This document shows, in pieces, positions 44,306 through 63,855 of a DNA stretch of 64,000 nt. The stretch spans positions 930,001 through 994,000 of the forward strand of contig CAIFER010000001.1 of the NCBI GenBank assembly GCA_903789525.1. Direction: 5' to 3'. How positions within the stretch are numbered: position 1 is the first letter of the stretch; every line of letters begins with the position of its first letter. The position numbers and the translations under genes are program-made. The DNA comes from an uncultured Aeriscardovia sp. (lineage in GTDB: Bacteria; Actinomycetota; Actinomycetes; Actinomycetales; Bifidobacteriaceae). A model generated the notes under the pieces. It ran no database searches and was not told the origin of the DNA. It saw nothing but the letters and a program-made list of their open reading frames with translations.

Positions 44306-44392
44306 CCGATAATCTTGGAAGCCTAACTCGTAAATCTATCTGACTTATCTGGGCTAATAACGGTGAAATCTGTTCGAATACGCCTATATCTG

Positions 44393-44920
44393 CCTTATAT
44401 GGGGTGCGTGATCGGACGTATCTCGTTTATGTGGGGTGCGTGTGAGCGGATATCTCATCTAATTGGGGCACGTAAATGGGCATATTTCGCCTAATTAGGG
44501 CACTTTCACGCTCTTATCATTTTCAAGACCCGCATGATATCAACGATCCTGTTTCCGCTACTCTCCCCAAAGTGCCCCAATTAGCCCAGATAGGGTGTTT
44601 TTGGTTCCCAGTTAAGGCAGATTCGGTCTTCTTCTGCCGCCTAAGTAGTTCTGATGGCTTATCTGGGTAATCTCTCGCATCTAACTGGGGTCATATATAT
44701 TGCTTTTTGTCTAACTGGGGTAATCGTTTTCTCACTCGATTTCTAAGAATTGCATTATTTCAATGATCCTGTTTTTCGGCTTTCGGGAATCCACCCCAAT
44801 TAGGCGAATTGAAACCCCAGTTAGGCGAGTGAGACCTTTAAAAGACCAAAAAACAACCCCAGATAGGCATGGAAGACATATCCGACCCCAGATAAGCCAA
44901 AGGGACTCCCTTAAATAAGT
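44393..44920 (+). repeat. Composite YTAWNTGGGG repeat cluster A (units A1 ~44393-44626, A2 ~44656-44920)
   Basis: Forward motifs (TTATATGGGG, TTATGTGGGG, CTAATTGGGG, CTAACTGGGG) on the left, reverse complements (CCCCAATTAG, CCCCAGTTAG, CCCCAGATAA) on the right of cores ATCAACGATCCTGTTTCC and TTCAATGATCCTGTTTTTCGG. Confidence 0.85.
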
Positions 44921-47216: not shown

Positions 47217-48375
47217 CACGCACATATCTCTTATCTGGGGTTTCGGATCTCGTTATGTGGGGTTAAAACATGTCTTCCTCGCCTATCTGGGGTGAGGAAC
47301 TCGTCTTATTGGGGGCAGACTTTAGGGAACCGAAAAACGAGATCATTGCAACGAGTGGGATTCTGGAAATTGGGTTAGAAGATGGTGACCCCAGTTAGGC
47401 GAAGAGCAATTTCTCTGACCCCAATTAAGGACGGTAAATCACCCATTTAAGCCAACAAACCTATATGAGTGCGGAAAACCGACTGGATCTCCTCTAAGTG
47501 GGAACCAAAAACACCATATACGGCTCTCTTTGCGATCAATTGGCTCTATCTGCACACTACTGGCCCTATGTGTAGCGGAAAAATAGGAGTTCAACTAAGT
47601 AGTTCGCTTAAGTGAGTGCCCACCCGCGTTAAGTGAGCACATTTCGTGAGTGAGCAAGCGATGAGAATCGTTGGAATCACGCGGTTTCTCAAAAACGTCA
47701 GGAAAAATAGAGGACGCAGATAGACGAGAAGAAGACTCATTTAGGCGAAAAACAATATTTTCATACCCAGATAGAAGCGATATCACTCAAATAACGATGA
47801 TTCCCACTCAGATAGAGTCAATTTGACCTCAGATAAGCGAGACAGGTCCTGTAGGGAGCCCACATAGGTCAATTGTCTGAAGCGAGCGCGGGGAAAGCGA
47901 CCGTATCTCCCCTAACTGGGAACCAAAAACAACCTATATGGGCTAATCGGGGCACTTTGAGGAAAGTAGCGGAAACACAATCGTTGGAATCATGCGGGCC
48001 TCGAAAATGGTATGAGTGTGGAAGTGCCCCAATTAGACTGACTATGCCCAAATACGCACCCAATTAAGGCAGATTCAATCGCCAATCACTTCACCTAGAT
48101 GAGATAGACGCATAAGACAGCTCGCTTGACCCCCTATCTCGCTTAAGTGGATTCAATAACAGCCCTCTCAACAGGTCCGCTCGCCTAAGTGGATGGAAGG
48201 CGAGCAGAGACTAATGGCGAGGGTGAGCCAAGATCGTTGAAACAAGTGGGTTCCCGAAAATGAAAGGCGAAAACCTCGCATCCATTTAAACGCGTATAGA
48301 ATCCACTTAAGCGAGAAGCAATGTTTTTAAATCCACATAAGCGAGATTGAGGTACTTCCCTATCCAAATAAACAA
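47217..48375 (-). repeat. Composite YTAWNTGGGG repeat cluster B (units B1 ~47217-47456, B2 ~47490-47875, B3 ~47905-48075, B4 ~48134-48375)
   Basis: Four units with convergent motif arms around cores (minus strand) TTGCAATGATCTCG, TTCCAACGATTCTC, TTCCAACGATTGTG, TTTCAACGATCTTG. Confidence 0.85.
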
Positions 48376-48453
48376 GAATGACAATCATTTGAGAGGATTT
48401 ACACCGTATATCGAAAAGGCAAGGAGATGCACGCGAAAAATTGCATATAAAAA

Positions 48454-63044: not shown

Positions 63045-63855
63045 CTATCTCGCTTATGTGGATTTTAAAATATCGCTTCTCGGTTAAGTGGGTTTCGTGC
63101 GAGTTTAAATGGATGCGAGATTGATGTCACTTGTTTTCGGAAACCCACTCGTTTCAACGATCCTGATTTGTCACGTCTTCCGGTCTCACCTTCACGTCCA
63201 TCCACTTAAGCGAGATAGCCGTCAAGAAGAGGATTTCGCGCGCCTATCTCGCGTATTTGTGTAGATAGGTGCTTGCATCCGCCTATATGGGGTGCATGTG
63301 AGCGGATATCTCATCTAATTGGGGCACACAAATGGGCATATTCCGTCTAATTGGGGCACTTTCGCGCACTCACCATCTTGAGGATCCGCGTGATTTCAAC
63401 GATCCTGTTTCCGTTCTCTTCCCTCAAGTGCCCCAATTAGTCCATATATGGTGTTTTTGGTTCCCAGTTAGAGGAGATTGAGACGGTTGACGTACGCAGA
63501 TAGGATAAGTGATCTAAATGGGAACACAATTAAAGGAGATATAGTCGCTTCCCACACCCAGATAGGATTGTTGGCTTAACTGGGTGAATTATGGCCGCTA
63601 TCTGGGGTCAGAGAAATTGCTCTTCGCCTAACTGGGGTCACCATCTTCTAACCCAATTTCCAGAATCCCACTCGTTGCAATGATCTCGTTTTTCGGTTCT
63701 CTAAAGTCTGCCCCAATAAGACGAGTTCCTCACCCCAGTTAAGCGAAGAAGACATGTTTTAGCCCCACATAACAGGACTCAAAACCCCACTTAAGCGGAG
63801 TCGAGACCATTTCAGCCCCAAATAAGCGCGACAGCCATCATCTCAATCCAAAAAT
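63045..63855 (+). repeat. Composite YTAWNTGGGG repeat cluster C (units C1 ~63045-63220, C2 ~63278-63480, C3 ~63570-63855)
   Basis: Three units with convergent arms around cores TTTCAACGATCCTGATTT, TTTCAACGATCCTGTTTCC, TTGCAATGATCTCGTTTTTCGG; C3 has about 90-100 nt identical to reverse complement of B1. Confidence 0.87.

Follow-up and report, generated by a model that had tools for sequence, protein, structure and literature searches.

The DNA analysed here, hereafter the window, is a stretch of 64,000 nucleotides from an uncultured Aeriscardovia sp. It carries nine repeat units in three intergenic loci, A (44340-44900), B (47230-48370, on the opposite strand) and C (63050-63830), and a core region of ~36 nt is common to all nine. 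The loci adjoin genes for a substrate-binding protein, an alpha-L-arabinofuranosidase and a GH127 enzyme, locus C lying downstream of the GH127 gene. The substrate-binding protein gene located between loci A and B (window:45264-46724) is paralogous to that at L011:7183-9072. Two other inverted repeats are found in the window: a strong terminator-like hairpin (AAAATGCCATACAGCAC/GTGTTGTATGGCATTTT, window:60665-60704) that follows an ABC transporter gene and precedes T-rich DNA, and, just upstream of unit C1, a distinct inverted repeat of 21 bp around a 7-nt loop (window:62998-63046). The units and the parts of unit C2, in which the arms were first described, are as follows.

44391-44620, + strand: unit A1, GGGGCAC subtype; core 44530-44547
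44655-44899, + strand: unit A2, GGGGT subtype; core 44751-44768
47227-47454, - strand: unit B1, GGGGT subtype; core 47342-47359; half-site spacings 30 and 22 either side, 113 across
47600-47871, - strand: unit B2, GAGT subtype; core 47667-47684
47903-48072, - strand: unit B3, GGGGCAC subtype; core 47980-47997
48134-48376, - strand: unit B4, GGAT subtype; core 48233-48250
63049-63214, + strand: unit C1, GGAT subtype; core 63144-63161
63278-63475, + strand: unit C2, GGGGCAC subtype; converging half-sites at 63284, 63316, 63348 (+) and 63439, 63470 (-)
63347-63361, + strand: C2 inner left arm, CTAATTGGGGCACTT
63386-63403, + strand: C2 conserved core, CCGCGTGATTTCAACGAT
63426-63440, - strand: C2 inner right arm, AAGTGCCCCAATTAG, fully complementary to the left one
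63571-63830, + strand: unit C3, GGGGT subtype; core 63667-63684; half-site spacings 22, 30, [112], 30, 22, 31

The initial annotation held that the inner arms of each unit are complementary across the core and that both change together with the subtype. For C2 this is exactly what the letters give, since CTAATTGGGGCACTT and AAGTGCCCCAATTAG match at 15/15 bp with 64 nt between them, and the likeness drawn to A1 (TAATTAGGG) and B3 (CTAATCGGGG) is also borne out, with one mismatch each. The GGGGT pair is exact in A2 (CTAACTGGGGT/ACCCCAGTTAG) and nearly so in C3, but inexact in B1, whose innermost right arm reads CTATCTGGGGT. The GGAT pair needs correction: the left TTAAGTGG site of C1 is TTAAGTGGGT and not GGAT, and in B4 the quoted pair is present but not innermost. 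Rather than a single arm per side, a unit contains multiple half-sites that converge on the core, in most cases from both sides, and those within one unit tend toward the same flavour. These sequences did not arise by chance, because the window contains 14 copies of TAAYTGGGG where 0.32 would be expected and half-sites reach 25-27/kb in the loci versus 1.2/kb elsewhere, a ~20-fold enrichment. A profile built from the nine units finds only those nine as strong matches in the genome; one half-site-like match (genome coordinate C1:434413) was dropped as lying inside a coding sequence.

The three loci are block copies of one another with their units in the same order (C3/B1, 88% over 271 bp; C2/A1, 86% over 197 bp). 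The units are therefore not independent, and the sharing of subtypes between loci mostly reflects duplication.

Helical phasing and the stem model

The spacing of the half-sites is regular. Distances between successive half-sites on the same strand cluster at 21-22, 30-32 and 42 bp, with a Rayleigh z of 22-25 at a period of 10-10.5 bp. Across the core, the six subtypes give distances of 91.5, 102, 102, 112.3, 113 and 123 bp (R=0.99, p<1e-4, in a test set up after the distances had been seen), of which the 123-bp and one of the 102-bp values come from two G003 units; the ranges 91-92, 102, 111-113 and 123 bp are thus separated by steps of ~10.5 bp, or one helical turn. Related elements in other genomes are also rigid, with an inner gap of 76 in 36/36 Bifidobacterium elements and an arm-to-arm span of 105 or 106 bp in 26/26 Schaalia elements. 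The sites are spaced by whole helical turns, as in a phased array on double-stranded DNA. Such quantised spacing fits a protein assembly on duplex DNA, whereas neither a loop nor a stem requires it.

The annotation had offered an RNA stem, a DNA cruciform or palindromic binding sites as the reason for the complementarity. To compare these readings, the similarity of arms able to pair was set against that of arms unable to pair, with permutation within each element. In the largest set, the 48 elements and 160 palindromes of related Bifidobacterium, partners score 0.562 versus 0.556 for the permuted arms (p=0.30), while arms score 0.557 within an element versus 0.434 between elements (sd 0.016). 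Partners are therefore no more alike than non-partners, yet arms are alike within an element, and the shared flavour belongs to the element as a whole. The window's genus behaves differently: the nine window units and the two G003 units represent six subtypes, and their mirror partners resemble each other more closely than shuffled positions do (0.644 vs 0.558, p=0.0002), most clearly in the innermost pair (0.747 vs 0.557). This symmetric signal fits dyad-symmetric protein binding and a stem equally well. In Schaalia, the two arm flavours of an element always agree (15+11 = 26/26) and the alignment displays compensatory changes in the outer arms together with a small inner hairpin; since each element has one arm pair, these changes are compatible with the stem and protein-site models alike. 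Likewise, C2 and C3 fold with low energies (z-scores about -5), but the two strands do so about equally, and the low energy is not stem-specific because any inverted repeat would give it.

A structured non-coding RNA, in which the arms pair across the core of a transcript, would account for the mirror symmetry in the window's genus, the Schaalia compensatory changes and inner hairpin, and the fold z-scores. We nevertheless judge it quite improbable: the largest set has no partner-specific covariation, C2 and C3 fold about as well on one strand as on the other, the spacing is quantised by the helical turn, the elements keep no consistent strand relative to genes (see below), and no Rfam covariance model scores above its gathering threshold over the element. 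Recognition of a DNA structure, either a cruciform or a single-stranded hairpin, in the manner of attC sites or REP/RAYT, agrees with inverted arms of varying sequence and with the quasi-palindromes present in every group of elements; it is very improbable in our view, given that complementarity is often broken mid-arm, as in the Actinomyces arms, that several half-sites lie on each side, and that their phased spacing is rigid. Of the readings originally offered, the stem is thus not favoured, and it is the binding-site alternative that gains from the element-wide homogeneity of the arms and the ~10.5-bp phasing.

A constant core with group-specific arms

BLASTN of the window's array matches only its own genome among 189 family genomes and nothing among phages and plasmids; the relatives emerged with a profile and a core pattern. 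The core, CCGCRTGATTYCAACGAT, is found across Bifidobacteriaceae and Actinomycetaceae. With one mismatch allowed, ten genomes contain 82 copies versus 0 for a reversed-pattern control, and with up to two mismatches it occurs in 152/189 Bifidobacteriaceae genomes, far above the same type of control, although lone sites in many of these may be chance. In GTDB genomes the core 20-mer yields 53 stretches versus about two expected from base counts. Nearly all of them are in Actinomycetales, and nearly all come from Bifidobacterium, Actinomyces, Schaalia and the strains that carry the names Sanguibacter and Xylanimonas. Around this core the arms differ by group (species names of Bifidobacterium and Actinomyces are presumed):

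Window's group: TANNTGGRG
B. primatium, simiarum, saimiriisciurei and pluvialisilvae: GATGGATTRCG...CGYAATCCATC
B. boum and thermophilum: GGGAGATTAT
Schaalia: TTTCGCAYGYAATTCC
Actinomyces ruminicola: TGTCCNNNATCGGCACAAACG

Core matches at the start of a cysS-like coding sequence were set aside, as was an exact core in L070 (G023:C1:705907) that is contained in a terminator-like hairpin, perfect over 14 bp (AAGGGCCGCATGAT-TCCAACG-ATCATGCGGCCCTT). Seven viral contigs carry the core pattern. In B. thermophilum (L258:12980-13770), there is a cluster of five cores with an arm motif of another type, several of the cores being separated by exactly 125 bp.

The elements are intergenic in 52/57 cases, with the core on either strand and in no consistent orientation relative to genes. 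Of the 52 intergenic sites, 16 lie between convergent and 8 between divergent genes, and co-directional contexts occur too; a leader or terminator RNA therefore does not fit. These contexts also bear on the possibility that the units are operator or nucleoid-architecture arrays, in which a host regulator or nucleoid protein would occupy phased half-sites and control the neighbours, here arabinoside-use and transporter genes. Phased sites converging on a core, next to the substrate-binding protein, arabinofuranosidase and GH127 genes, are what such arrays would look like, but elsewhere the neighbours are unrelated, convergent contexts are found as well as divergent ones, and locus C is downstream of its GH127 gene, so that we consider this explanation unlikely.

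The Schaalia elements end in sharp terminal inverted repeats of 18-19 bp (94-100% complementary) amid unrelated flanks, as MITEs do. The units might accordingly be inert, non-autonomous MITE- or REP-like repeats bound by nothing, their arms homogenised by template switching or gene conversion and their copies spread by block duplication. Arm homogeneity that is element-wide rather than partner-specific, the block relationship of A, B and C and the intergenic position in all contexts all agree with this. However, inert repeats predict neither helical quantisation of the spacing nor a near-identical core maintained across two families despite replaced arms, and inspection by eye of the aligned element ends gave no clear target-site duplication; we regard the explanation as fairly unlikely.

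Nuclease genes flanked by elements

Nine genes for MTES_1575/DUF559 (Vsr-like) nucleases have the core in direct orientation on both sides, and correspond to about three independent loci. When 18 genomes were searched with a profile of these nucleases, the eight top-scoring matches were all core-flanked, the ninth flanked gene being that of A. bouchesdurhonensis. Six of the nine flanked proteins, picked for lying between elements, had gone into the profile, so that the nucleases of G153, G495 and L157 are the less selected cases. Among 18 further paralogs (L282 excluded), 4 have strong flank-to-flank repeats (E<=1e-8) versus 9/300 control placements, and these repeats have other arms and partly similar cores. 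At L271:1230-1400, the flanks of an MTES_1575 nuclease gene carry GTCCAGCACG arrays in ~19-20-bp steps and a palindromic core, CACCATCGTTGAAATTTCAACGATGGTG.

By sequence, the element-flanked nucleases resemble Vsr-fold homing endonucleases (PADLOC HEase), the nearest solved relative being PDB 3r3p, a 'Mobile intron protein' (E=0.00045); the predicted structure of the Schaalia nuclease is of low confidence (mean pLDDT 46). The genes examined beside elements encode either a Vsr-like nuclease or unrelated enzymes, with no linked integrase or transposase found among them. In G495 (L193:4370-5750) and G453, a gene lies between two direct elements. At the corresponding place in Schaalia G366 (L151:3560-3720) that gene is absent and one element is left, whose left flank is that of the first element and whose right end is like that of the second; this single element is possibly the product of a solo-element event. 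No DUF559/MTES_1575 nuclease gene turned up in either the window's genome or those of its three relatives in the genus, and the window's array may for this reason be an orphan.

Proposed model and likeness to known systems

Based on these observations, we propose that the units are duplex DNA assembly sites, that they belong to a dispersed element family linked to homing-type nucleases, and that in this genome they are orphans, a proposal that we rate as close to an even call. In this model, a putative sequence-specific DNA-binding protein would sit on several converging half-sites of ~15 bp (CTCGCYTANNTGGRG plus a subtype suffix), all facing the same side of the helix and placed on both sides of the conserved core. 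Each unit would belong to the intergenic elements of Bifidobacteriaceae and Actinomycetaceae that combine the constant core with group-specific arms, and core and arms together would serve a Vsr-fold homing-type nuclease (MTES_1575/DUF559) as the site of recognition and of cutting or recombination. The nine window units may then be orphans that multiplied by block duplication. Our confidence is restrained because the window's genome is without the nuclease and the protein on the half-sites is putative. Also counting against the proposal are the unrelated genes next to some elements, the mirror symmetry in the window's genus, which a stem would give as well, and the joint flavour switches and compensatory changes of the Schaalia arms together with their small inner hairpin.

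A more far-reaching version, which we find possible but doubtful, is that these elements belong to a selfish nuclease-element system of Actinomycetales, with a Vsr-fold nuclease encoded between two direct constant-core elements whose arms carry the specificity. Cutting and repair would spread the element, arms and nuclease would diversify together, and recombination between copies would delete the gene to leave solo elements; the nine window units would represent copies, solo or in arrays, that outlasted the nuclease.

No description of the element was found in the literature covered, which lay outside subscription journals, and the family in bifidobacteria and their relatives is apparently undescribed. 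If the proposal holds, one unrecognised element family would have left its marks at hundreds of intergenic sites in the genomes of bifidobacteria and Actinomyces, which are common in the gut and mouth, and the common but little-understood MTES_1575/DUF559 nucleases would gain a candidate DNA target, the constant core and replaceable arms of which would make nuclease specificity directly testable.

Several known systems share part of this organisation. Like MITEs, the elements are short, have terminal inverted repeats and contain no gene, but no clear target-site duplication is seen here by eye, and across genera it is the core in the interior, not the ends, that is better conserved. Phage attachment and transposon-end arrays, such as those of Mu, Tn7 and lambda, consist of a core and arm sites; the present arrays similarly join a core to several phased, oriented arm sites, but their two sides mirror each other and a linked integrase or transposase was not found. 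Vsr-fold homing endonucleases (PDB 3r3p; PADLOC HEase) resemble the nucleases described here in sequence and in having the gene at its putative target. The putative target, however, recurs between genes, has arms specific to each element and is present in many solo copies, and homing itself is presumptive in the present case. REP/BIME sequences with their RAYT transposases are also dispersed intergenic inverted repeats that sometimes flank the gene of their own enzyme. By comparison, the elements reported here are larger (105-300 bp), combine a constant core with replaceable arms in phased multi-site arrays, and are linked to a Vsr-fold nuclease rather than to a Y1 transposase.
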